From Methanosarcinales archaeon (GTDB taxonomy: Archaea; Halobacteriota; Syntropharchaeia; Alkanophagales; Methanospirareceae), in the NCBI GenBank assembly GCA_030611585.1, contig JAUWPM010000003.1, positions 1-51,236 on the forward strand: a stretch of DNA of 51,236 bases, given 5' to 3'. The notes under the pieces were generated by a model, which was not told where the DNA came from, ran no database searches, and saw only the letters and a list, made by a program, of their open reading frames with translations. Both the position numbers and the translations under genes were made by a program. Shown here one piece after another: positions 2,125 through 50,010 of this stretch (within the stretch, counting starts at the first letter, position 1; every line of letters starts with the position of its first letter).

Positions 2125-2709
2125 TCACGACGCCAGAATCAAATCCAGCAGAGCTTTCCTATCCACTTCCGCTCGCGTCCGCCAGCCGATATACAATACC
2201 TTATCCGCTTCACCCACATAGCCCTGCTTGATGTACCGATCGAGAGCGAAGAATATTCGCTGTTTGGGGAATTTCGCACTTAAAAACGTCTCGACCGCTT
2301 TCCGCGTCGCTTTGCCCTGCTTCGAGATGATATAAGCCAACGTAGCGGAGAGCATGGCAACGTTGTCTATCCGTTCACCCGAAGCCTTCTCAATCACCGG
2401 GCTTTTGAGCACAATCATAAACCGGTCGCGCTCTGCTCTCTTATCTCCTTTTCCTTTGTCTTCCCCTTCCCCTTCTCCTCCTTCTCCCGCTTCGCTTATT
2501 CGTTTGACTTCCATGCCAAGCTTATCGAGCGCGGAATTTAAAACCCCGATTACTTCCATATAGTCATCGCCCAATGCCTTTTTAAGCTCCCAACCTTTAA
2601 CGCCCGGGATTCTATGCTGCCTGAAGAATAATAACTGAGCTGCCTTCTTCACCTTCCGTTCGGTTCTTGCCCTTAATTCCTCTTCTGTTTCCCCTTCCAT
2701 CTTAACCAA
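2125..2709 (-). CDS. Tandem winged-helix protein, possible KITE (ScpB/Nse3-MAGE-like) subunit
   Basis: LSATLAYIISKQGKATRKAVETFL...RQ..YVGEADKVLYIGWRTRAEVD resembles a MAGE/KITE winged-helix pair; overlaps the neighbouring kleisin-like ORF. Confidence 0.5.
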   Translation of the reverse strand: MVKMEGETEEELRARTERKVKKAAQLLFFRQHRIPGVKGWELKKALGDDYMEVIGVLNSALDKLGMEVKRISEAGEGGEGEGEDKGKGDKRAERDRFMIVLKSPVIEKASGERIDNVAMLSATLAYIISKQGKATRKAVETFLSAKFPKQRIFFALDRYIKQGYVGEADKVLYIGWRTRAEVDRKALLDLILAS

Positions 2710-3542
2710 TCCTCATAGCTTAACGAAACCGGAATAGACCTGCCCTGAGTGTGATCTGCTTTGGCATTGACGTTGGTGTTACTCGGAGAAATAAACACTT
2801 CTTCTTCTAAGGGATTTATATCGAGTTCCGCTTTGCCTTCGTTTACTAGATAACTCGTCAGATACGCTTTTTTTATACTCGTTTCGAACGCATCGCCATA
2901 AATAAAATCATGATATTCGATTCTGCCACGCGCCTCAAGGTCGTTTAAAACCGCTTTTATCGAGTAGTCGAATTCCGTTTTAGATAAGATATTCAACTCA
3001 ATTAAATCCTCAATGCCGAATGTCGATTCGATCGCAGACGGAAATGGAAACTCGTCATTCCGCGCACCGAGAGGTAGGAGAGCGTTCCAATAAGCCAGTC
3101 CCTCTTTCAACCTCTGTGGAGTAATTCGATCCATCGCTATGATTGGATGCCAGGAGTTAAAGAATGCCGTTGCTAACTGCTGGGGCTCCAGCATTTTGAG
3201 TTTGAGTTCCAGTAACACTGGATCTATATAGAACGACGAGGAGCGGTCTTTTATCCATTTACCCTGCAATTCGATTATCTTTGCCAATTCGGCGATCGCC
3301 TCTGCGTCTAAAAGCAGGTCGTCTAACGATTTCCACTTCTTAGTTTTATGATACCGCTTCAGCGTTTCCAGAAACTTCTTGACGTCCAGGTCGAACGGGT
3401 CAGTCCCTTCCGTTTGTATCGTTTTACAAAAATTTAGCAGTCGGAATAGCTCGTCGAATTTCATTTGCTTACCTGGATTTTTGTAATTCCCCATCGTTGT
3501 TAACGTCCACCTCTCGCAGATATAATTTAATTTCAACTTCAT
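2673..3542 (-). CDS. Possible kleisin-like (ScpA-like) protein
   Basis: MKFDELFRLLNFCK...DPFDLDVKKFLETLKRY...AEAIAELAKIIELQGKW and a C-terminal winged-helix-like AYLTSYLVNEGKAELDINPLEEEVFI. Likely start is the internal Met at MKFDEL or MGNYKN. Confidence 0.45.
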   Translation of the reverse strand: MKLKLNYICERWTLTTMGNYKNPGKQMKFDELFRLLNFCKTIQTEGTDPFDLDVKKFLETLKRYHKTKKWKSLDDLLLDAEAIAELAKIIELQGKWIKDRSSSFYIDPVLLELKLKMLEPQQLATAFFNSWHPIIAMDRITPQRLKEGLAYWNALLPLGARNDEFPFPSAIESTFGIEDLIELNILSKTEFDYSIKAVLNDLEARGRIEYHDFIYGDAFETSIKKAYLTSYLVNEGKAELDINPLEEEVFISPSNTNVNAKADHTQGRSIPVSLSYEDWLRWKGKQKRN

Positions 3543-3656: not shown

Positions 3657-6600
3657 ATGAAAATGTTTGTAGATATGAAGAATAATAATAAAGGGGAGGG
3701 TATTGGAGGTGTTCGTATAAAAAATAAGAAGTTGATTGTGATGGCAGTTGCTGTTCTGACCCTGTTAGTGGTGTTTATAGGTATGGCACTACAGCCTGCG
3801 GCAGCGCAAACGTGGCCTACCTCGTGGACGTGGATAGATTCCGATCCAAATGAGAATGGTTGGCAAGATGATTTCCGGGATGTGAAAAATGCTTACTATA
3901 ATTATGACGAAGAATATCTCTATCTTCGAATGTGTTGTTATGCTAATGCGACATTAACATCCCCTAACCAAGAAGGCCGATTTAAATGGTTCATAGATTT
4001 AGATCACAATGCTCATAAACAAGGTGGAAATATAATAGAGGGGGAATATCTTCTTTTTGTTGAAGATGCAAATAACAATGGCACTGGTGAGGTCTATCTT
4101 TTGAATGATACTGACGGTGATGGTTATTTCGATGATGACTGGGGCCAATCTACAGGCGGCCTATATAAAAACGAAACTATTACTAATGTTAGTATAGCAG
4201 ACTATAGAATAACTGGCAAGTGTGTCGATTTATATGTGCGTCTGGCCAACATAACTAATCCCTCTAATTTATCCCTCATCTGGGTAACAGATCAAGAGAA
4301 TCCTAACCTCGATCAAGCACCCACTACTGATCACCCTGACTCAACGCCAATAGGTCCCTTATGCATACATTGTGCACCCGTTTTTAGTTTAGCGAAGTAT
4401 GATTGGCCGGATCCCGTTAAAGCTGGCGAGAATCTTACGTATACCATTATCTATGAGAATACAGGCAACATGAACGCCACGAATGTTACCGTAACGGAGG
4501 TATTTGACAACAATGTAACCTTTCTCAATGCAACGCCTGCACCTGATACTGGAACAAATGACACATGGACAATCCCAAATCTCCCCGTTGATGGTAAACA
4601 TTATATCAACATCACGGTCAGGGTGAATGGCACGGTCGCCAATGGTACCATCCTAACGAATTATGTGAATATTACATGCGATCAGGGCGTCGAAAATAAT
4701 CATACTGTATATACAGAAGTGGTAGGCGAGCCCGTATTGAGTATTACCAAGTACGCTTGGCCTGACCCTGTTGCGCCATGTGGAAATCTTACTTATACCA
4801 TTCTATTCGGAAATACCGGCGATGTTAATGCTGCCAACACAACACTGAATGATACGCTTCCATCACAGGTAACCTTTATTTCTGCTTCGCCTGAGCCCAC
4901 CAATACGTCTAACGATAACCACACGTTATCTTGGGATATTGGTAATCTTCCACGAAATGACACTCGTACTATCACGATCAACGTGACGGTTAATTGTCCA
5001 CTTCCCTGTGGATCTAACCTTACGAATTTTGTCAATCTCTCCGCTGATAATGCAGAGACGGTGAATCATACTGAGGTGACAATAGTACGCTCTGTTCCAA
5101 GGCTGGAAATAGTAAAATTTGATAGCCCAGATCCGGTAGAAGCAGGAGCACAGCTAACCTATACAATTTATGTCAACAATACCGGATGTGCAAATGCTAC
5201 CAATGTGACGGTTACTGAACTATATGATGCCAACGTCACCTTTGTAAATGCAACGCCATATCCTGATTCTGGAAACAATATATGGAATCTTTCGACTCTC
5301 AATGTCAGCGAAAGTAAAACAATCACAATCACCGTGAATGTCACATCTCCGCTTCCAAATGGCACAATTTTGGTGAACTTTGCGAATGTAACCTGTGACC
5401 AGGGTGTGAAAGATCAAATCTATCAGGATACCACAGTAATATCTGCACCCTATTGTAGTTTAGCAAAATATGACTTCCCAGATCCCGTTAAAGCCGGCGC
5501 GAATCTTACGTATACCATTATCTGTGAGAATACGGGCAACATGAACGCCACGAATGGTGTCATAACGGAGGAATACGATGCCAATGTCACCTTTCTCAAT
5601 GCAACGCCTGCACCTGATACTGGAACAAATAACACCACATGGACAATCCTCAATGCTCCACCAGGCGTTAAGCATTATATCAACATCACGGTCAGGGTGA
5701 ATGAGACGGTCGCCAATGGTACCATCCTCACTAATTATGTAAACGTCACATCCGACCAGGACTTTGAACATAATCATACTATTTATACTGAAGTTGTGGG
5801 TGCGCCCGCATTGAGTATTACCAAGTACGCTTGGCCAAACCCTGTTTCACCACGTGGCAATCTTACCTACACCCTTTATTACGCAAATTTCGGCGGGGAT
5901 AATGCTACCAACACAACACTGAATGATACGCTTCCACCACAGGTAACCTTTATTTCTGCCTCTCCTGTGCCCACCAACACGTCTAACGATAACCACACGT
6001 TATTCTGGGATATTGGTGATCTTCCACGAAATGACACTCGTACTATCACTATCAATGTGTCAGTTAATTGTCCACTTCCCGATGGAACTATCCTTGTAAA
6101 TAACGTCAGTCTCTCCGCTGATGAGGTAGAGACGGTTAATGATACTGCGAAAACAACAGTAGACTCTACTCCAAGGCTGGAGATAGTAAAACTTGATAGT
6201 CCCGATCCTGTACAAGTAGGAGGACAGCTAAACTATACGATATATGTCAATAATACGGGCTGCGCAAATGCGACAAATGTAACGGTTACTGATGTAGTAG
6301 CTATGGCTAATGTCACTTTTGTAAATTCTGATCCTTCCCCAAATATTTCGGGGAACAATACATGGACATGGACGAATTCAAGCATTGCACCGGGAGAAAG
6401 CTGGCAGATAACACTAACGGTTCAGGTTGATACTCTTCCGCTTGATGGGATTTTATTTGACTTTGTGAATGTAACCTGCGATCAGAATGTGAAAGCTGAC
6501 AAATGGGTGCTTACAAACGTGACATCCCCCAACATTGTCGATCCGAAAATTGCTGTCGATCAAAACGGTCCTCCGTTAGAGCCTGGGGACATCATCTGTT

Positions 6601-7097
6601 ATACCGCATGGGTAAACAACACGGGAAACGCAAATTCAACCGATAATCCAGGTAACGAATTCGAGGATCCCATACCAGAGAACACTACCTACAATAATGG
6701 TTCTTTGCAGATAAACGATGTAAATGAGACCGATGATATTGGTGATGGTATTGGCTACGACGCGGACAATAATACGATTATTTGGAATGGCAATATTACT
6801 GCTGGTGGCTCAATCAAAATTGGGTTTTGCGTTACTGTGGATACAAACGTGACTACAGGGATGGTGATTTCGAATCAAGGAATTGTTTATTACGATAGAA
6901 ATGGAAATGGGACAAACGATGCAGAAGAACCGACCGATGATCCGGGAACTGAAGTAGTAAATGACCCCACCGATTTAGTACTCGATTTTGCTCCGTCACT
7001 GCCGGTTCCAACCATGACACCAGTTGGGATGATAGCACTTGTAGGATTGCTTTCCGCGGTCGCTGCACTGAGTATAGGAATAAGGAAGAAAGGATAA
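3657..7097 (+). CDS. Secreted/surface protein with about seven DUF11 (TIGR01451-like) repeats and a C-terminal TM anchor or sorting signal
   Basis: N-terminal signal/TM (KKLIVMAVAVLTLLVVFIGMALQPAAAQ), repeated KYDWPDPVKAGENLTYTI..NTGNMNATNVTVTE..D.NVTF units, many NxT/S sites, C-term VPTMTPVGMIALVGLLSAVAALSIGIRKKG. Confidence 0.9.
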   Translation: MKMFVDMKNNNKGEGIGGVRIKNKKLIVMAVAVLTLLVVFIGMALQPAAAQTWPTSWTWIDSDPNENGWQDDFRDVKNAYYNYDEEYLYLRMCCYANATLTSPNQEGRFKWFIDLDHNAHKQGGNIIEGEYLLFVEDANNNGTGEVYLLNDTDGDGYFDDDWGQSTGGLYKNETITNVSIADYRITGKCVDLYVRLANITNPSNLSLIWVTDQENPNLDQAPTTDHPDSTPIGPLCIHCAPVFSLAKYDWPDPVKAGENLTYTIIYENTGNMNATNVTVTEVFDNNVTFLNATPAPDTGTNDTWTIPNLPVDGKHYINITVRVNGTVANGTILTNYVNITCDQGVENNHTVYTEVVGEPVLSITKYAWPDPVAPCGNLTYTILFGNTGDVNAANTTLNDTLPSQVTFISASPEPTNTSNDNHTLSWDIGNLPRNDTRTITINVTVNCPLPCGSNLTNFVNLSADNAETVNHTEVTIVRSVPRLEIVKFDSPDPVEAGAQLTYTIYVNNTGCANATNVTVTELYDANVTFVNATPYPDSGNNIWNLSTLNVSESKTITITVNVTSPLPNGTILVNFANVTCDQGVKDQIYQDTTVISAPYCSLAKYDFPDPVKAGANLTYTIICENTGNMNATNGVITEEYDANVTFLNATPAPDTGTNNTTWTILNAPPGVKHYINITVRVNETVANGTILTNYVNVTSDQDFEHNHTIYTEVVGAPALSITKYAWPNPVSPRGNLTYTLYYANFGGDNATNTTLNDTLPPQVTFISASPVPTNTSNDNHTLFWDIGDLPRNDTRTITINVSVNCPLPDGTILVNNVSLSADEVETVNDTAKTTVDSTPRLEIVKLDSPDPVQVGGQLNYTIYVNNTGCANATNVTVTDVVAMANVTFVNSDPSPNISGNNTWTWTNSSIAPGESWQITLTVQVDTLPLDGILFDFVNVTCDQNVKADKWVLTNVTSPNIVDPKIAVDQNGPPLEPGDIICYTAWVNNTGNANSTDNPGNEFEDPIPENTTYNNGSLQINDVNETDDIGDGIGYDADNNTIIWNGNITAGGSIKIGFCVTVDTNVTTGMVISNQGIVYYDRNGNGTNDAEEPTDDPGTEVVNDPTDLVLDFAPSLPVPTMTPVGMIALVGLLSAVAALSIGIRKKG
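4384..6530 (+). repeat. Two tandem copies of a ~1.07 kb super-repeat, each with three DUF11 domains
   Basis: agtttagcgaagtatga (4386) vs agtttagcaaaatatga (5457); gtattaccaagtacgcttgg (4741) vs (5815); ccaaggctggaaatagtaaa (5097) vs (6171). Offsets are 1071, 1074 and 1074 bp. Confidence 0.88.
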
Positions 7098-9657: not shown

Positions 9658-10749
9658 TCACAGCTTCATCCTTCCTATATCCACGTATCTAATTATATAA
9701 CTCTCTTCCCCTACTTTCTCCGTAAACGAAAATATCATTCGCTTCTTCACGCCGTGCGCCAACCGTACCGCCCGTGCTAACTCGGGCATCGAAAACACAT
9801 GCTCTTCGGGCAGCGCATGAATCAAATTCAGGGAATGTCTCTGGTTTGTTGCCTTGTACACTCTGAAATGCGAACCGAATTTAAAACCGGTTTTTAGTAT
9901 CAGCCCCTTTTCCCTTAGATCCTCGTAAACCGCGTATTTAGCCATGAACTCGCTTTCTATGTGGGCGGCATGCTCGATGAACTGCTCGAAACTCAAACTC
10001 AGTTCCAGCAGCCCTTTCTTTAACAAATATGCCGCTTCAACCAGCGAAAGCAGCAACCTATTCTCATTCGTTAACTTGCCATAAAAATCGTTTTCGTAGA
10101 GGTTCACAGCTAAATCCGTATCCCATAAAGTTACCCTGTCCCCCAGCAAAGATGCTTTACCCTTTCCGCTCACTTCACTCTTCCTTTTTCTATCTTCTCG
10201 CTCCTCTCGCTTCTCAATCACGTCGTCAAACTTTGCTTCCTTGACGTCGTAGTACGTGACGTCGCTTTCATCATCCACGACTGCAATAACGGGCTCCTTT
10301 CTCATGTTATGAGCTAAAACAAGGATAGCCTCCATGTCCTTCACCGATAAAAATTCTCGCTCTGATAATATGCGGATGAAGTACCGAGCAGTCTTCGCTC
10401 CCGGCTTGGTTCCACGCGGATAGAGCCAAAAATCAACTTTACCGGGCTGCACCACATAGCCGCGCTCCTTCAAATCTTTGTACACGATGTATCTCGCCCC
10501 GAAGTTCGGATAGATGCCCAACGCATGCTTAAAGAAATCTTCAAGTGTCAACTCCGATCCTTTTCCCTTTGTTATTACTATCTTCCCAGCCTCAAGCAAA
10601 AAAGCAGCCTCTTCCAGTGATAGCTCTAATTTGTACTCCCGTTCCCCTTTTACACCTTTACCCTTTTTCCTTCCGTAACCCCGAAACTCAAAAGTATCTG
10701 CTTCTGACCCTGCTACTATGACATTTTCGCCTGACAGTACTCCGTGCAT
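9658..10749 (-). CDS. endA: tRNA-splicing endonuclease (two-repeat archaeal type)
   Basis: GARYIVYKDLKERGYVVQPG..FWLYPRG and FMAKYAVYEDLREKGLILKTGFKFGSHFRVYK repeats. Start moved to the internal ATG (MHGVLSGENVIVAGSE) to avoid overlapping alaS. Confidence 0.88.
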   Translation of the reverse strand: MHGVLSGENVIVAGSEADTFEFRGYGRKKGKGVKGEREYKLELSLEEAAFLLEAGKIVITKGKGSELTLEDFFKHALGIYPNFGARYIVYKDLKERGYVVQPGKVDFWLYPRGTKPGAKTARYFIRILSEREFLSVKDMEAILVLAHNMRKEPVIAVVDDESDVTYYDVKEAKFDDVIEKREEREDRKRKSEVSGKGKASLLGDRVTLWDTDLAVNLYENDFYGKLTNENRLLLSLVEAAYLLKKGLLELSLSFEQFIEHAAHIESEFMAKYAVYEDLREKGLILKTGFKFGSHFRVYKATNQRHSLNLIHALPEEHVFSMPELARAVRLAHGVKKRMIFSFTEKVGEESYIIRYVDIGRMKL

Positions 10750-10836
10750 CTTTATTGTGATAAACGATTTCTCAATAAGAAAGAAAACAATAAGCTTTTT
10801 AAGTCTCTCTTCTCCATGTGCATAGAATAAAATAAA

Positions 10837-13632
10837 ATGAATAATGGGGAGTACGACATAGAATACTTCAAGGAAAATGGATTCGTAAGGAAGCAATGCG
10901 AGAAGTGTGGCACGTACTTCTGGACTCGTGATAAAGATATAAAGACATGCGGGGACGCCCCGTGTGAGATTTATTCGTTTATCGGCTCGCCCATCTTCAA
11001 AGAGCGAAGTCCCGATGAGGTGAGGGAATCATTCCTGTCTTTCTTTGAAGATCGTTCGCACACGAGACTGGGAAGGTATCCGGTCGTGGCACGATGGCGA
11101 GATGACATATACCTCACAATCGCATCTATTGCGGATTTTCAACCTTTTGTAACGTCAGGCAAAGTCCCTCCACCTGCGAATCCGCTCGTCATTTCGCAAC
11201 CCTGCATACGGCTTGAAGACCTCGAATCCATAGGGAAAAGCGGTCGTCATTTAACCATTTTCGAGATGATGGGTCATCATGCCTTCAATAAACGAGGCGA
11301 GGAGGAGATATACTGGAAGAATGATACCGTGAGGTATTGCGATGATTTTCTGCGACAACTTGGTGTGGACATGGAGAGTGTAACATATAAGGAAGCTCCG
11401 TGGGTAGGCGGCGGAAATGCGGGACCGTGCCTCGAAGTAATCACCGGCGGGTTAGAGCTTGCTACACTCGTTTTCATGGACCTCGAACTATCTCCTCGTG
11501 GTGACATAAACATGGAGGGGCGGCGATATCGGAAAATGGACACGTACGTCGTGGACACGGGATACGGCTTGGAACGTTTTGTATGGGCTTCTAAGGGTAC
11601 TCCAACGGTGTATGACGCGATGTTCCCCGCCGTAATAAAGGAATTGGTAAACGCCGCGGGAATTGAACATCCGATAGAGACGCATCCAGAGATAATTATG
11701 AAGCATGCAAGTTTGTCCGGCTCTCTGAAAAGGGTAGAAATAGCGAAAAGATTGGGTATTTCGCTGGAAACTCTCACAAGCATATTGGAGCCGATAGAAA
11801 CCATCTATGCGGTTGCAGACCATACAAAATGCCTGGCGTTTATGCTCGCGGATGGTATCGTACCTTCAAATGCAAAAGAGGGCTATCTGGCAAGATTGGT
11901 CTTGAGAAGAGCTTTTAGGATGTTGAAATCCTTAGGAATAGAAACACCGTTAGAGGAATTAGTGCTCATGCAGATAAAAACGCTCAGAAATTCTTTCCCA
12001 GAACTGCAGAAATCTGTGGATAGAATCGTTGAAATCGTCTCGCTCGAGAAGCGGAGATACGATGAGACGCTTTTAAAAGGCGAACGAATAATACGGCAGC
12101 TTGCAAAGGAATATGAAGGTAAAGCTGAGCAAAAAGTGCCGCCCGATCTACTCATTAATTTATACGATACTCACGGGCTACCACCGGAATTTGTGAAAGA
12201 CGTGGTATCTAACATGACAGACATGAAAGCAGGCAGTGAAGTGAAAGTAGAGGTTCCGGAGAACTTTTATACGTTAGTTGCACGTATGCACAGCGAGGAG
12301 CGAAAGGAAGAGGTGGAACCTTTCGTAGAGAGCATGAGAGAGAAGACGAAGTCAATTCCGGCGACGATAAAGTCGTATTACGAAGAGCCATCTGCGGTAG
12401 AGTTCGAAGCCACCGTTTTGGATGGAGTTGATGATTTTGTCATATTAGATAAGACGCTCTTTTTCCCGGAAGGCGGTGGTCAACCTGCGGATACCGGCTT
12501 CTTGACTTTCGTGCGGAACGGTGAGACGGGTGCAAAGAGCGTAAAGGTAGTGAACGTGCAGGAAGTTGACGGTGTTATTCTTCATAAAATAGAGAACGGG
12601 GAGATAAGTATAAGCAAGGGTGCAGCGGTATCTGGTCACATAGATCCAAAGCGGCGAATCGCGCACACAAAGCACCACACCGCAACGCATATAGTGGTCT
12701 GTGCAGCGCGGAAAGTACTGGGCGACCACGTCTGGCAGGCAGGAGCGCAGAAAGGAGAAAAGAGAGCGAGAATTGACATCGCACATTTTAAACGAATTTC
12801 TAACGCTGAACGAAGGGAGATAGAAATGCTTGCAAACCAGATGGTCATGGAGAACCTGGAGATAAGGACGAGCTTTGTGGATCGGAATGAGGCGGAGCAG
12901 AAATACGGTTCCCGTATTTATCAGGGTGGCGTGCCCATCGGTAAGGAGATAAGAATAGTGCGAATCGGCGAGGATCTGGATGTGCAGGCATGTGCCGGAA
13001 CGCATCTCTCAAGGACTGGTGAGTGCGGTCCGATAAAAATATTGCGCACTGAGCGGATACAAGATGGTATCGAGCGATTAGAGTACGCAGCAGGCGAAGC
13101 TGCGGTCGAAGCGATCCAAGCGCAGGAGGAACTGATAAGGAAATCGGCGGCCGTAGTAAAAGTACCATCCGAGAAGCTTCCTACGGTGGTTGAACGATTC
13201 TTTGAGGAGTGGAAACAGTTGAGGAAGGAGAACGAGCGATTACGCGGTGAGATCGCGGAACAGGAACTCGAGCGTTTGAGGGGGCAAGCACAAGATATAA
13301 GCGGTGTAAAGGTTATTGCGGCGGTATTGCCCGATGCGGATACGAAAGCGATGCTGAAAATCGCATCGCTGCTCTCGAATGAGAACTTCGTAACGATATT
13401 AATAGGACGGGAAGAAAAAAGTGCATCTGCCGTTGCATCCATACCAGCTTATCTCACGGATGAGATACATGCTGGCATAGTAATCAAGCGTGTTTGTGAA
13501 GTGCTCGGAGGAAGTGGGGGCGGTAAAGCTGAACTGGCACAGGGCGGTGGTAATAGGAGAGATAAAGTGCATGAAGCCCGTGATGTGGCTTTGAAATATA
13601 TAGAAGTGGCATTACTACAAAGGAAAAAATAG
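10837..13632 (+). CDS. alaS: Alanyl-tRNA synthetase (archaeal type)
   Basis: NGFVRKQCEKCGTYFWTRDKDIKTCGDAPC, FFPEGGGQPADTG, HTKHHTATHIV, CAGTHLSRTGE. Confidence 0.97.
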   Translation: MNNGEYDIEYFKENGFVRKQCEKCGTYFWTRDKDIKTCGDAPCEIYSFIGSPIFKERSPDEVRESFLSFFEDRSHTRLGRYPVVARWRDDIYLTIASIADFQPFVTSGKVPPPANPLVISQPCIRLEDLESIGKSGRHLTIFEMMGHHAFNKRGEEEIYWKNDTVRYCDDFLRQLGVDMESVTYKEAPWVGGGNAGPCLEVITGGLELATLVFMDLELSPRGDINMEGRRYRKMDTYVVDTGYGLERFVWASKGTPTVYDAMFPAVIKELVNAAGIEHPIETHPEIIMKHASLSGSLKRVEIAKRLGISLETLTSILEPIETIYAVADHTKCLAFMLADGIVPSNAKEGYLARLVLRRAFRMLKSLGIETPLEELVLMQIKTLRNSFPELQKSVDRIVEIVSLEKRRYDETLLKGERIIRQLAKEYEGKAEQKVPPDLLINLYDTHGLPPEFVKDVVSNMTDMKAGSEVKVEVPENFYTLVARMHSEERKEEVEPFVESMREKTKSIPATIKSYYEEPSAVEFEATVLDGVDDFVILDKTLFFPEGGGQPADTGFLTFVRNGETGAKSVKVVNVQEVDGVILHKIENGEISISKGAAVSGHIDPKRRIAHTKHHTATHIVVCAARKVLGDHVWQAGAQKGEKRARIDIAHFKRISNAERREIEMLANQMVMENLEIRTSFVDRNEAEQKYGSRIYQGGVPIGKEIRIVRIGEDLDVQACAGTHLSRTGECGPIKILRTERIQDGIERLEYAAGEAAVEAIQAQEELIRKSAAVVKVPSEKLPTVVERFFEEWKQLRKENERLRGEIAEQELERLRGQAQDISGVKVIAAVLPDADTKAMLKIASLLSNENFVTILIGREEKSASAVASIPAYLTDEIHAGIVIKRVCEVLGGSGGGKAELAQGGGNRRDKVHEARDVALKYIEVALLQRKK

Positions 13633-43978: not shown

Positions 43979-44009
43979 AGGAATGATCTTATGTAATGCT
44001 ACATTCCAA

Positions 44010-46442
44010 ATGGATGAGAAGATAATCCAACTTTCCGCTTTGTTACATGATATAGGTAAGTTCTGGCAGGGTGTGGGTGAAAAAGGGAAACACTCAGAAT
44101 TAAGTAGCATGTTTATTCAGGAGTACGTGCCAGAGCAGTGGCACGGGGCTGCTGGGATCGTCGCGAAGCATCATGATCCAGAAGCACGCAAGTCCGGGGA
44201 GTATAAACCTTTAAAGACGATTGTATGTGCAGATTGGCTCTCATCGGGTGAGCGGCGAGGGTTAGTAGAGGATGAAGATAAAGGCGAGCGGAAAGCGACA
44301 CCGCTGATGTCTATTTTTTCGGAGATTAACATTGGTAAAGGCACGCCTGGTCCCGCGCAGTATTATCCCATACATAAGTTGGAATTGGATAAGGAAGTTA
44401 TATTTCCCAAACCGTTAGAAGGTAAGAAAGGAGAAGATCGTTTAAAGGGGGATTATACCGGATTATGGACGGATTTCGTGAAAGAAGTGGAAAGCATAAA
44501 GGTGATAACAGATTTTGATGCGTATTTCAATACGCTTTACTATCTATTGCAGAAATATACGTGGTGTGTGCCTTCTGCGGTCTGGAAAGATGTTCCGGAT
44601 GTTTCCTTGTTTGATCATTTGAAGACGACATGTGCGATTGCAGCGTGTTTGTGCAATGCCGAGGAGCATTACCTCAACAACGTGATAAGTGGTATAGAAA
44701 AAAGTTGGAGAAAAGAAGATTTAAATGAGGAAGAGGAAAGCGCCTTAAATGATGGTAAATTCCTGCTTATAGGTGGGGATATTTCTGGCGTCCAGAATTT
44801 TATTTATGCCGTAACCTCAAAAGGAGCCGCGAAAGGTTTACGTGGCAGGTCGTTTTACCTTGAGTTGCTTACAGAAAGCACTGCCAAGTATATCTTACGT
44901 GAATTGAATTTGCCAATTGCAAATCTACTCTATTGCGGTGGTGGACATTTTTACATCCTCGCACCCAGCGTTGTAGAGAGCGATTTAGAAGGTTTAAGGA
45001 AAAGAATTGCTGAAGATTTGTTAGAGGTTCACAGTGTAGAACTATATTTAGTGCTTGATTGGCTTCTGTTATCTGCTAATGTATTTCAAAAGAGGCAGTT
45101 TGGCGATGCATGGACGGGTATAGGCAAGAAAATAGCGAAAATGAAGAAGAGGAAATTTGCAGAGATTCTGGAGAGGCATGATAGAATTTTTGGACCCATG
45201 GGCGAAGGGGGAACAAAAGAGACTTGTGATATCTGCGGTAGTGAGGAAGAAGTAATTGAGGAAGAAGATGGAAGGAGAATATGTACCTTTTGTAAAAGTT
45301 TAGAGAGTCTTGCGAAAGAGATTGGAAAGGCAAGTTATTGGATTGAAACATGGAAAACTGATATAAAAATAAGTGAAAAAGAAAAAGGTAGTTGGAAAGA
45401 AGCTATTTCTAAATTTGGTGTTGAATATGCGTTTGTGGAAAAGATGGATAATGATTTGAAGACAAGAGAAGCTGACCACATATCAGTGTATAAGCTAAAT
45501 GATACCCATTTCTCGAATGTTATTCCAGGCTATAAGGATGCGAAATCGCCAATTTCATTTGGATTTAAGTTCTTGACGAAGAATACCCCATATAAAGAAA
45601 TAAAAGATATGGAAGGAAAAGCCCACCCCACAGAGGATATAAAAGATTTTCGCGATTTAGCGAGAGATTCTGAAGGAATAAATACTTGGGCTGTATTAAG
45701 AGCTGACGTAGATAATCTTGGTAAGATATTTGCAGATGGTTTAGGTGAGGATAGAACGATTTCAAGAGTATCAAATCTGAGCGCCATGCTTTCGCTCTTC
45801 TTTATGGGCTGGATGGAGAAGATATGTGAAGATGATAAATATAGGGAGAAAGTGTATGCGATTTACTCTGGAGGGGATGACCTTTTCGTAGTTGGTGCAT
45901 GGGATAGAATGCCAGAAATAGGGAAGAATATTTATGACGATTTCGGGACTTTCACGTGCATGAATCCAAATATAACCTTATCCGTAGGTATAACGATAGC
46001 GCCGTCAGAGAAATATCCGTTGTATCAAGCTGCGGATTTGGCAGGAAAAGCATTGGATAAATCAAAGGATTTGAAAGGAAAAAATGGTGTCACGTTCTTG
46101 AATATGCCAATGAAGTGGGATATATTCAGCGGAGATATTACAGAACTCAAAGAAGATTTGAAGAAGCTTCTTAATGCCAGCGTTTCTCGTGGCTTTTTAC
46201 AAAAGTTGAATGCGATATATGGCGAATATGAAAAACAGAAGGTGGAACATGGAGAAGCTTCAGCAAAGTATGACGACCGATATGGTAGATGGCGATGGTT
46301 ATTGGCGTACGTGATAGCGAGAACAAAAGTTTCAAAAGAGGATAAGCAATTATTGAAAAAAACGGAAGTGCTCATTCGTAAAAATATTGAGTATTTACCT
46401 ATCGCAGTGCGATGGGTAGAATATTTAACGAGAAAGGAATAG
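44010..46442 (+). CDS. cas10: Type III-A CRISPR Cas10/Csm1 with HD and GGDD palm domains
   Basis: HD motif LLHDIGKFW, zinc motif CDICGSEEEVIEEEDGRRICTFC, palm motif YAIYSGGDDLFVVG. The ORF track start is 43983; MDEKIIQLSALLHDIGKF at 44010 is preferred. Confidence 0.95.
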   Translation: MDEKIIQLSALLHDIGKFWQGVGEKGKHSELSSMFIQEYVPEQWHGAAGIVAKHHDPEARKSGEYKPLKTIVCADWLSSGERRGLVEDEDKGERKATPLMSIFSEINIGKGTPGPAQYYPIHKLELDKEVIFPKPLEGKKGEDRLKGDYTGLWTDFVKEVESIKVITDFDAYFNTLYYLLQKYTWCVPSAVWKDVPDVSLFDHLKTTCAIAACLCNAEEHYLNNVISGIEKSWRKEDLNEEEESALNDGKFLLIGGDISGVQNFIYAVTSKGAAKGLRGRSFYLELLTESTAKYILRELNLPIANLLYCGGGHFYILAPSVVESDLEGLRKRIAEDLLEVHSVELYLVLDWLLLSANVFQKRQFGDAWTGIGKKIAKMKKRKFAEILERHDRIFGPMGEGGTKETCDICGSEEEVIEEEDGRRICTFCKSLESLAKEIGKASYWIETWKTDIKISEKEKGSWKEAISKFGVEYAFVEKMDNDLKTREADHISVYKLNDTHFSNVIPGYKDAKSPISFGFKFLTKNTPYKEIKDMEGKAHPTEDIKDFRDLARDSEGINTWAVLRADVDNLGKIFADGLGEDRTISRVSNLSAMLSLFFMGWMEKICEDDKYREKVYAIYSGGDDLFVVGAWDRMPEIGKNIYDDFGTFTCMNPNITLSVGITIAPSEKYPLYQAADLAGKALDKSKDLKGKNGVTFLNMPMKWDIFSGDITELKEDLKKLLNASVSRGFLQKLNAIYGEYEKQKVEHGEASAKYDDRYGRWRWLLAYVIARTKVSKEDKQLLKKTEVLIRKNIEYLPIAVRWVEYLTRKE

Positions 46443-46452
46443 GGTGAGAAAA

Positions 46453-46827
46453 ATGGGTGATGGAATCGTAGAGGAAATAAAAGGGGAATTGCTTTCCATA
46501 CTGGATGGCGATTCCGAAAAATTGGTGAATAACGCGAAGAAATTGGGCAGGCATTTGAGTGGAAGACTCACTACATCTCAGATAAGACGCATTTTCAGTG
46601 AAGTGAAGCAGATGGAAAACTATGACAAGAATAGGTTAAACCTGCTACGACCGAAAATGGCTTATACTGCTGCCCGACACAAGAAGACAGTGCGAGAGAT
46701 AGTAGATTTACAGGAAGTTTTGGATGAGTGTATAAAAAACACGAACAGCGAAGAGCGGTTCAAGAATTTCGGGGATTTTTTCGAGGCAATATTGGCATAT
46801 CACCGTTATTATGGGGGAAAAGAATAG
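46453..46827 (+). CDS. csm2: Csm2 small subunit
   Basis: KLGRHLSGRLTTSQIRRIFSEVKQME...LNLLRPKMAYTAARHK; position between cas10 and csm3. Confidence 0.92.
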   Translation: MGDGIVEEIKGELLSILDGDSEKLVNNAKKLGRHLSGRLTTSQIRRIFSEVKQMENYDKNRLNLLRPKMAYTAARHKKTVREIVDLQEVLDECIKNTNSEERFKNFGDFFEAILAYHRYYGGKE

Positions 46828-46836
46828 GAGGTAAAA

Positions 46837-47664
46837 ATGGTAGAAATAAGTCTGGAAGGAAAGATTGTGATTACAGGAAATATAAGAACAGAAACGGGTT
46901 TAAGTATTGGCGGCGCGACCGTTGGATTAGATATAGGTGGAGTGGATAATCCCGTGATAAAGAATGCAGAAGGTAAACCGTATATACCAGGGTCATCGCT
47001 AAAAGGTAAAATGCGCTCGCTTTTGGAAAAAGCAAATGGATTAGCCACAGATGATAAGCGAATATGGGTAGTGCCAAATGAAATAAGCATACACATGTGT
47101 AATGAGCCGGAGTGCGTGGTCTGCAATATATTTGGAAGGACAACAAGAAAGGAACCTTATTCATCTCCAGGTGGAGGTGCGATAAAAATAGAGAAAGAAA
47201 ACGTTACACCCACTCGTTTAATAGTGAGAGATGCTGTGCTTTCGGAAGATAGCGTAAAAAAGCTGAGGGGGCTGAAGACCGACTTAGAATTTACAGAAGT
47301 GAAGTGGGAGAATGTAATAGATAGAATAACCTCGGCAGCGACTCCAAGACAGATGGAACGGGTTCCAGAAGGAGCAGAATTCAAGTTCGGGATGATATAC
47401 AATGTCTTTACGGAATCAGACAAAAGCAACTTGAGAGAAGTATTCAAAGCACTGGAGCTTCTTGAGCACGATTATCTCGGAGGAAGCGGCTCGAGGGGAT
47501 ATGGCAAGGTGAAATTTGAAGACGTGAACGTATATTGGAATTCAAAGGCTGATTATGAGAACGGAGATGTAGACACCGAGACGAAAACATCAATAAATGG
47601 CGAATACAAAACGCCTGCGAGCATAGTAAAGAATTTTGAAGCGATAAAGGAAAAAATCAAGTAG
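46837..47664 (+). CDS. csm3: Csm3 RAMP (Cas7-type) backbone subunit
   Basis: GKIVITGNIRTETGLSIGG...IGGVDNPVIKNAEGKPYIPGSSLKGKMRSLLE. Confidence 0.95.
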   Translation: MVEISLEGKIVITGNIRTETGLSIGGATVGLDIGGVDNPVIKNAEGKPYIPGSSLKGKMRSLLEKANGLATDDKRIWVVPNEISIHMCNEPECVVCNIFGRTTRKEPYSSPGGGAIKIEKENVTPTRLIVRDAVLSEDSVKKLRGLKTDLEFTEVKWENVIDRITSAATPRQMERVPEGAEFKFGMIYNVFTESDKSNLREVFKALELLEHDYLGGSGSRGYGKVKFEDVNVYWNSKADYENGDVDTETKTSINGEYKTPASIVKNFEAIKEKIK

Positions 47665-47665
47665 C

Positions 47666-48739
47666 ATGAGAGTATGCAAACTGAAGCCAAAGGCGCATTT
47701 TCATCTTGGCGAGAAGGAGACGATTTTGGAGAAGACATCTGATTACATACATTCTGATACCTTATTCAGCGCTATTTGTAACGCATACAGATTGCTTTAC
47801 GGTAACGAAGAACTTGAGACTATGTTAGAAGGATTTATGCGGCATGAGCCACCATTTTTATTCTCTTCTGCTTTTGTGTACGCAGACGATATATTAGTGC
47901 TCCCTTTACCATTATCCGTAGACTGGGATAAATATATGGATAGAGAAGTAATAGAAGGACTAAATGCAGAGAGAAAAGAGACGGATAAGATAGACAGATT
48001 TGACCTTCTAAAAAGGTTAAAGCGGGTGAAATTTGTTTCCGAGCGTATTTTCCGGGACTTGACAAAGGATGAGCGTAGGATAAAGGAATATATTAACGAT
48101 AGGAACATCATCCAAGGCATCCTTTTTACTGATGAAGAAGTAGAAGGATTAAGAAAGCAATTTGATGTGCGAGAAAATAAGGATATAAAAATTTGGAGAG
48201 AACGAGAAGTCCCAAGGGTTGCAATAGATAGAAAAACAAATTCATCACATATTTATCATTTTGGTGAAGTATCATTTGCAACGGATTGTGGACTTTATTT
48301 CCTGATGGATTCGCGGCTGAAAGAATACGAGAAAAGAGTAGAGGCAACCATAAGAGTGCTTGGAGACGAAGGAATCGGCGGAGACCGAACTTACGGTAAA
48401 GGATTGTTTAAACCGGAATTTGACGAGATAGAAGTGAATATGGAACCAAAGAATCACTTTGTTACGCTTTCGTTATTTTATCCGCAGGAAGAGGAACTAT
48501 CCAAGCTAAAAGGCAGATACTACGAGTTGATAACCAGAGGAGGCTGGATTTACTCGATGGATGCGAAGAATCTGAGGCGTAGAACAGTGAGGATGTTCTC
48601 AGAGGGCTCGGTGTTTAGCACAGAGTCTAACTCGGGATTGTATGGCGGTTTAGCTGACGTTAAGCCTGAGGAATTTGCAGAACATGAGGTTTATAGATAT
48701 GGATATGCGTTTGCAGTACCGATGGAGGTGAGCGAATGA
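47666..48739 (+). CDS. csm4: Csm4 RAMP (Cas5-type) subunit
   Basis: CKLKPKAHFHLGEKE..ILEKTSDYIHSDTLFSAICNAYRLLYG, GDEGIGGDRTYGKGLF. Confidence 0.93.
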   Translation: MRVCKLKPKAHFHLGEKETILEKTSDYIHSDTLFSAICNAYRLLYGNEELETMLEGFMRHEPPFLFSSAFVYADDILVLPLPLSVDWDKYMDREVIEGLNAERKETDKIDRFDLLKRLKRVKFVSERIFRDLTKDERRIKEYINDRNIIQGILFTDEEVEGLRKQFDVRENKDIKIWREREVPRVAIDRKTNSSHIYHFGEVSFATDCGLYFLMDSRLKEYEKRVEATIRVLGDEGIGGDRTYGKGLFKPEFDEIEVNMEPKNHFVTLSLFYPQEEELSKLKGRYYELITRGGWIYSMDAKNLRRRTVRMFSEGSVFSTESNSGLYGGLADVKPEEFAEHEVYRYGYAFAVPMEVSE

Positions 48740-50010
48740 GATATGAGTTAGAGGTGATCTCTCCGGTTCACGTAGGTAGTGGCAGGACAATAAGCCCGAT
48801 TGAGTACGTTGTAGAGGACAATTTTTATCGTGTAGATATGGACATGCTTTTTGAGGATGATAGATTTGATGCAGAGGGATTTATCGAAGATGCAAAGGGA
48901 GGAGCATTTTATCTTGGAAGATTCGCACCAGAGCTTGCGATGGAGCATGTTAGATATAGTTTAGATATTTCGAATTCTGTGAAAAATAATCTTTGTAAAT
49001 CGGTTTATCATCCAAGTGGAGAGATAAGAGAATTCATTAAGACCAAAGATTTGCCATATATTCCCGGTAGTTCAATGAAAGGTGCATTAAGAACTGCAAT
49101 GTTATGGAAAGCATTAAAAGATCCGCAAATATTCCAAGAAGCAAAAGATATCATAAGAGAACAGGGTAAAGTAAATCCAAAAAATGCGGGTGAAGGAATA
49201 GAAAAGCTTGTTTTTGGTAGAAATCCAAACTATGATTTACTAAGAGCATTACAAGTTTCTGATAGCCAAATAACAACGATGAATAACCTTGAATTATCAA
49301 AAGTAGTAATATTAAGCGATACAAGAGAGGGATATGGATGGAAGACGTTCCGAGGAAGAAGGTCATTTATAAATACCAATTATGAAGATGCCACACCTAT
49401 TTTTATCGAAGCATTGAAGCCAAGGAGTACATTGACAGGGACATTAAAGATAGATAATTGGCTTTTACGCGAAGAGGAAGAAGAGATAGCAAAAGAGCTG
49501 GAATTTAATGGCAAGCAATACTTGGTAGAAGATATTGCAAAGAATTGTAAAGAATTCGCTAAGGATTTTATTGCGGGAGAATTAGCGTTTTTGGAGCGAT
49601 ATAGAAGTGGTACGTTAAGGAAAGTGGTAGAATTCTATATGACGCTTCGAGAGGAGTTAAATAAGTTATCAGAAAATGAATTATTGCTCCCTATTTCATG
49701 GGGCTCGGGTTGGCATGGCATGACCATTGGGAACTTATTTGATGTAGAAAAGCTACGCAGAAATTTTGATTTGGGAAAGAATATCAAAAGAAGCGTTTGC
49801 AAAAAGTGCAATTCGGAATTAGTAAAAGAGAGGCCAAGTGATAGATTCTATGACTATTGCCCAAACTGCAGAAAGCACATAAGAAGAAATGAACAATATC
49901 AAAAAATAGTGAAAATGATCTGGCCGTTCCCGAAAACACGCCGATTAGTATTTGAAAATGGCAAACCGACATATCCTCTTGGGTGGGTAAAACTAAGCAT
50001 TGGAGATTGA
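48736..50010 (+). CDS. csm5: Csm5 RAMP subunit, with a C-terminal Cys4 zinc-ribbon-like segment
   Basis: YELEVISPVHVGSGRTISPIEYVVED, YIPGSSMKGALRTAML; CKKCNSELVKERPSDRFYDYCPNCRKH; 4-bp overlap with csm4. Confidence 0.93.
   Translation: MRYELEVISPVHVGSGRTISPIEYVVEDNFYRVDMDMLFEDDRFDAEGFIEDAKGGAFYLGRFAPELAMEHVRYSLDISNSVKNNLCKSVYHPSGEIREFIKTKDLPYIPGSSMKGALRTAMLWKALKDPQIFQEAKDIIREQGKVNPKNAGEGIEKLVFGRNPNYDLLRALQVSDSQITTMNNLELSKVVILSDTREGYGWKTFRGRRSFINTNYEDATPIFIEALKPRSTLTGTLKIDNWLLREEEEEIAKELEFNGKQYLVEDIAKNCKEFAKDFIAGELAFLERYRSGTLRKVVEFYMTLREELNKLSENELLLPISWGSGWHGMTIGNLFDVEKLRRNFDLGKNIKRSVCKKCNSELVKERPSDRFYDYCPNCRKHIRRNEQYQKIVKMIWPFPKTRRLVFENGKPTYPLGWVKLSIGD

Follow-up and report, generated by a model that had tools for sequence, protein, structure and literature searches.

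An overlapping kleisin-KITE gene pair of ANME-1 archaea and a proposed minimal complex with an SMC ATPase of the Smc5/6 clade

Introduction

Which SMC complex do a kleisin and a KITE protein serve when their genes stand on a contig without an smc gene? The question arises from two overlapping genes in a stretch of 51,236 nucleotides (here called the window), which is contig C59 of a draft archaeal genome of 1.71 Mb in 136 contigs. A sequence-only reading of the window had proposed a ScpA/Nse4-type kleisin with a winged-helix KITE partner and, as one option, an Smc5/6-related module that acts with an unlinked ATPase. The origin of Smc5/6, a DNA-repair complex of eukaryotes, is open, and the kleisin and KITE partners of archaeal ATPases bear on it.

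Results

The longest open reading frames of the pair, both on the minus strand, span positions 2125-2709 and 2673-3542. Alignment of the orthologues gave no support to the upstream kleisin start at 3542 and indicated ATG 3464 as the likely one; the KITE gene likely starts at ATG 2700 and not at TTG 2709. Since the starts were set to these two ATG codons, the overlap is 28 nt (Table 1). The overlap was kept in the 29 pairs that we examined, with a length of 16-67 nt, mainly 28 or 40 nt. Two overlapping minus-strand frames had been noticed from the window alone, and their overlap proved to be a conserved feature. Translation of the kleisin and the KITE is likely coupled.

Table 1. Features of the kleisin-KITE gene pair in the window
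Feature	Position	Strand	Remark
Kleisin gene	2673..3464	-	263 aa; Nse4-like C-terminus and ScpA-like N-terminal motif
KITE gene	2125..2700	-	191 aa; tandem winged helix
Kleisin N-terminal motif DPFDLDVKKFLETL	3360..3401	-	Matches ScpA DPWxIDxxxxxDKFLxxL
Kleisin C-terminal winged-helix domain (Nse4_C)	2778..2987	-	
KITE winged-helix domain 1, including variable low-complexity loop	2407..2685	-	
KITE winged-helix domain 2	2188..2400	-	
Overlap of kleisin 3' end and KITE 5' end	2673..2700	-	Conserved

Other features of the window were recorded as well. Just 3' of the KITE gene (1784-2008) lies a zinc-ribbon-like ORF of 74 aa with a double CxxC, found at the same place in at least five other family genomes, not in all. 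At 43983-50010 the plus strand encodes type III CRISPR effectors, namely Cas10/Csm1 together with a RAMP protein. A tRNA intron endonuclease at 9661-10896 has its N-terminal and catalytic domains each matched twice, so it probably arose by internal duplication.

The kleisin is present in 36 of the 58 genomes of the class, all of which belong to the family of the window (f1; 36/51). It is single-copy in most of them, and its named relatives are mostly ANME-1 or Methanophagales drafts. The orthologues are 55-91% identical and span 11 genera, which excludes chance ORFs. Exactly the same 36 genomes contain the KITE, which adjoins the kleisin wherever both genes could be read. Beyond f1 we found no copy of the kleisin among 397 Halobacteriota genomes, and a search at E up to 10 found none in 13 genomes lacking it, including G054 (another family). 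Searches of plasmids and of IMG/VR viral contigs were also empty, so a plasmid or viral origin is unsupported.

The Pfam model Nse4_C matched 20 of the 21 kleisin orthologues (best E 4.9e-9). When the 397 Halobacteriota genomes were searched in six frames at E <= 0.01, 32 of the 34 matches were the kleisin locus and the remaining two were weak. Twenty genomes exceeded the curated Pfam cut-off, which we took as the criterion for Nse4, with 38.9 bits as the highest score; the copy of the window stayed slightly below it (25.1 vs 26 bits). When the PDB was searched with a profile built from the orthologues, yeast Nse4 came first (E 0.003) and human EID3, an Nse4 relative, appeared further down. 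The AlphaFold2 (AF2) model of the kleisin was weak overall (pLDDT 56), with residues 160-229 forming a winged helix at a pLDDT of about 70-90 and the N-terminal helices predicted at low confidence. Its top Foldseek match was Nse4 of the yeast holocomplex, although this match was not significant (E 0.04). Foldseek matches also included the C-terminal domains of ScpA and Scc1 bound to SMC heads, with probabilities of 0.95-0.99 and E-values of 0.4-0.8. Single-sequence PDB searches returned only noise for both proteins, and NCBIfam gave nothing useful for either.

The N-terminal part of the kleisin resembles a different family. Its residues 22-35 correspond to the ScpA motif of neighbouring families given in Table 1. 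The pattern DP[WF]..D..KFL occurred in 30 of 1490 distinct open frames, namely in 22 kleisins of this type, seven ScpA and one other frame, which lies at a canonical-SMC locus and is probably ScpA. Since the pattern was picked after viewing both groups, this count is supportive and not blind. With an N-terminal helical domain of the SMC-neck type, judged from the motif, and a C-terminal winged helix, the longer protein qualifies as a kleisin whose C-terminal end is of the Nse4 type, much as the sequence-only reading had it. Its binding to an SMC or to the KITE is inferred.

For the KITE, the AF2 model was also weak (mean pLDDT 66) and contained two winged-helix units. All four significant Foldseek matches were to chains in structures of MAGE-G1/NSE1 and of Nse1-Nse3-Nse4 (best 1.1e-4), followed by MAGEA4 and Pyrococcus ScpB. 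One orthologue weakly matched the SMC_Nse1 model (E 0.027), and HHalign gave no significant link to the ScpB proteins of the class. The tandem winged-helix fold and the position of the gene beside the kleisin place the shorter protein in the KITE superfamily, so the proposed winged-helix partner is a KITE. The further proposal that it stands closer to MAGE/Nse3 than to ScpB is favoured by the top Foldseek matches but rests only on a low-confidence fold model, and we do not claim membership in Nse1, Nse3 or ScpB.

No SMC_N match was found on the window contig. The best one in the genome was an ORF of 647 aa on another contig of 2.7 kb, most of which it takes up (G000:C93:413-2353). The protein has a Walker A motif GPNGAGKS, a signature QSGGER and a Walker B motif FRAVDEF. 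Its best PDB match as a single sequence was Smc5 (E 7e-25). The only other long SMC-type frame in the genome, on contig C86, carries a CPLC hook and is Rad50. Between the two head halves of the short SMC there are about 290 residues, 40% of them charged and with one proline. In this arm region we found neither a cysteine pair nor a match to the hinge model, and such a length leaves hardly any room for a normally sized globular hinge. The whole protein holds a single cysteine and thus lacks the CxxC zinc hook of Rad50. The relative of the short SMC from G054 has an even shorter arm region, by about 50 residues.

In a PDB search with a profile of the short SMC, the top match was Pyrococcus SMC (122 bits), slightly above Smc5 (116 and 98) and Smc6 (111 and 103), with Smc2 (87), Smc3 (78), Smc1 (75), Smc4 (64) and Rad50 (36 bits) lower. 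For the distant G054 protein, the C-terminal head ranked the five Smc5 entries first; for the N-terminal head of another copy, Smc2 and Smc3 stood slightly above Smc6 and Smc5. A tree of the head domains (380 columns) was built with eight short SMCs, eight canonical archaeal SMCs and Pyrococcus SMC, and with Smc5, Smc6, Smc2, Smc3 and Rad50; its eukaryotic sample is small. The sequences were taken from the PDB search output, and human SMC6 and the human SMC2 C-terminal head served only as probes.

The short SMCs, Smc5 and Smc6 came out together as a single clade (support 99/99). This grouping remained when Smc6 (100/99), Smc5 (97/94) or Rad50 (100/99) was left out and with the N-terminal head alone (96/98), and was weak with the C-terminal head alone (77/79). 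Forcing the short SMCs together with the canonical archaeal SMCs was rejected by the AU test (p-AU 0.00015). Joining them with Rad50 was not rejected (p 0.22), which is a sign of long branches, and the AU test did not resolve whether they stand nearer to Smc5 or outside Smc5 and Smc6. In the head alignment the short SMCs share FRxxDEF/I..MD..N and L-I-TP with Smc5/6, while canonical archaeal SMCs instead carry FYxxDE.D..LD..N and VVSLR. Judged by its head sequences, the short SMC is a member of the Smc5/6 clade. Hence the suggested Smc5/6-related module with an unlinked ATPase has found its candidate elsewhere in the genome.

The absence of smc beside the pair, pointed out in the sequence-only reading, holds for contig C59 but not for some relatives. 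G025 and G052 have the order smc-kleisin-KITE with each gene overlapping the next, and in G022 the smc gene lies upstream and ends at a distance of 0.4 kb from the kleisin. The same order is kept in G018, interrupted by a gene for a surface protein. Such linked and split arrangements in relatives indicate that the window pair probably became unlinked from its ATPase only secondarily. Among the 51 family genomes, 33 have both SMC and kleisin, two only the SMC, three only the kleisin and 13 neither (Fisher p 1e-7, uncorrected for relatedness).

Beside the kleisin, the window carries a gene for a surface protein of 1146 aa with repeated DUF11 domains (3657-7097), and the gene that splits the G018 operon resembles it in length and N-terminus. 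Upstream of the short smc and divergent from it is a gene of about 236 aa (L125:3263-3970, L124:8673-9368) that has no match in Pfam. It occurs in ANME-1 and in the distant G054, with 39% identity, and its product is a possible functional partner of the short SMC.

The models for ScpA (PF02616), the SMC hinge (PF06470) and ScpB (PF04079) matched none of the 51 family genomes. They matched 6, 5 and 6, respectively, of the seven other genomes of the class, and most control genomes. Absence from all 51 is not explained by the incompleteness of single drafts. G054 has the canonical set together with its short-SMC relative (40-47% identity) and no recognisable kleisin of the Nse4-like type.

One could still see in the pair the ScpA and ScpB of a canonical condensin, evolved so fast that they are no longer recognised, with its likeness to Nse4 arising from winged-helix convergence. 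The ScpA-type motif of the kleisin would fit this, as would ScpB among the fold matches of the KITE and an overlap laid out like that of scpA-scpB in neighbouring families. However, the ScpA and ScpB models are silent throughout the family, while Nse4_C matches instead and does so specifically. HHalign found no significant link between the kleisin and the ScpA proteins of the class, even though the alignment fell on the correct C-terminal domain, or between the KITE and their ScpB. Moreover, the sole SMC partner falls within the Smc5/6 clade. We therefore consider a disguised ScpA-ScpB unlikely.

The complex is not universal in the family, since 13 of the 51 genomes have neither the short SMC nor the kleisin. 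Among these 13 is G007, assembled into only five contigs and 92% complete; like the 12 others it has no canonical hinge, ScpA or ScpB either. Its only long SMC-type frame is Rad50 (935 aa, CPLC hook). G007 possibly represents a lineage without any SMC complex.

Discussion

Our results suggest, with a probability of roughly 80%, that the pair encodes the kleisin and the KITE of an SMC5/6-class complex together with the short SMC ATPase of contig C93, and that in ANME-1 this complex stands in the place of SMC-ScpAB. The identity of the genes, their placement in families, their conservation, the operon of the relatives and the absence of SMC-ScpAB were observed; assembly, stoichiometry, clamping of DNA and the cellular role are inferred.

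A different function has to be weighed here. Eukaryotic Smc5/6 restricts viral DNA, and the archaeal SMC is short, hingeless and missing from part of the family. The trio might thus be a defence system against foreign DNA and not a housekeeping complex. It would be of the Wadjet or Lamassu kind; in Wadjet, too, a divergent SMC is combined with a kleisin and a KITE (PMC10586767). However, PADLOC matched neither the kleisin nor the KITE and gave the SMC a score of only 31.5 bits with JetC and 67.8 bits with LmuB, so the JetA, JetB and JetC matches by which we would recognise Wadjet (JetABCD) are missing. There is no nuclease gene overlapping the operon in the relatives examined, most genomes have a single copy, plasmids and viral contigs have none, and Rad50 is the only further SMC of the family. 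A defence system is thus very improbable.

The complex of kleisin, KITE and short SMC is probably a minimal, homodimeric one of the SMC5/6 class, although its formation and function are inferred. With one SMC gene and one KITE gene, a complex built on homodimers is to be expected, as in SMC-ScpAB. In known complexes the C-terminal winged helix of the kleisin caps an SMC head. By analogy with such SMC-kleisin complexes, ATP would be sandwiched between the heads of two identical short SMC subunits. The kleisin would contact one SMC neck with its N-terminal helical domain and cap the other head with its C-terminal winged helix, giving one asymmetric bridge, and a KITE dimer would sit on its middle or linker. 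Head engagement driven by ATP would then clamp DNA. Since this would be the sole SMC complex besides Rad50, chromosome work is presumed in these cells, and the complex may organise, segregate or repair the chromosome in place of SMC-ScpAB.

A broader statement remains tentative, and we give it slightly less than even odds. It says that ANME-1 chromosomes depend on a complex of the SMC5/6 class which is minimal, hingeless and homodimeric and replaces SMC-ScpAB, with an Nse4-type kleisin that keeps an ScpA-type N-terminus. This complex would be a prokaryotic relative of the whole Smc5/6 core, whose SMC, kleisin and KITE would have diverged together before eukaryotes.

The ANME-1 family, a group of methane-oxidising archaea, gives us a lineage in which SMC-ScpAB was lost. 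Its three-gene operon, which encodes an ATPase of the Smc5/6 clade, a kleisin of the Nse4 type and a single KITE, offers a small and direct test system, and the hingeless SMC probes to what extent the ring architecture is required.

Archaeal SMC5/6-related SMC proteins have been reviewed (PMC10003631), and SMCs of this name were placed in a clade with Smc5/6 by Yoshinaga and Inagaki 2021, as cited in PMC9389158. As far as these accounts go, these proteins are alike in being archaeal SMCs within the Smc5/6 clade and unlike in that the ATPase alone is treated. Our literature search found no report of an archaeal Nse4 or of kleisin and KITE partners; subscription papers and preprints were outside its scope, and priority is therefore not established. 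The archaea-specific SMC-related proteins (ASRP) coalescin and Sph are also short SMC-like ATPases. However, their model NF045487 gave the short SMC only 45 bits, where its cut-off is 300, and the defining paper (PMC9389158) mentions no kleisin.

SMC-ScpAB is similar in its combination of kleisin, KITE and SMC, its overlapping kleisin-KITE genes and the N-terminal kleisin motif, whereas the ANME-1 set has no matches to the ScpA, ScpB or SMC hinge models. From eukaryotic Smc5/6 the archaeal set differs in having one SMC gene and not the two of a heterodimer, an SMC of 647 aa vs about 1100 that has no recognised hinge, and one KITE without a RING in the operon vs two KITEs, one of them with a RING (Nse1). 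What it shares with eukaryotic Smc5/6 are SMC heads in the Smc5/Smc6 clade with the motifs SGGER, FRxxDEF/I..MD..N and L-I-TP, an Nse4-type C-terminal domain of the kleisin, and a KITE partner.
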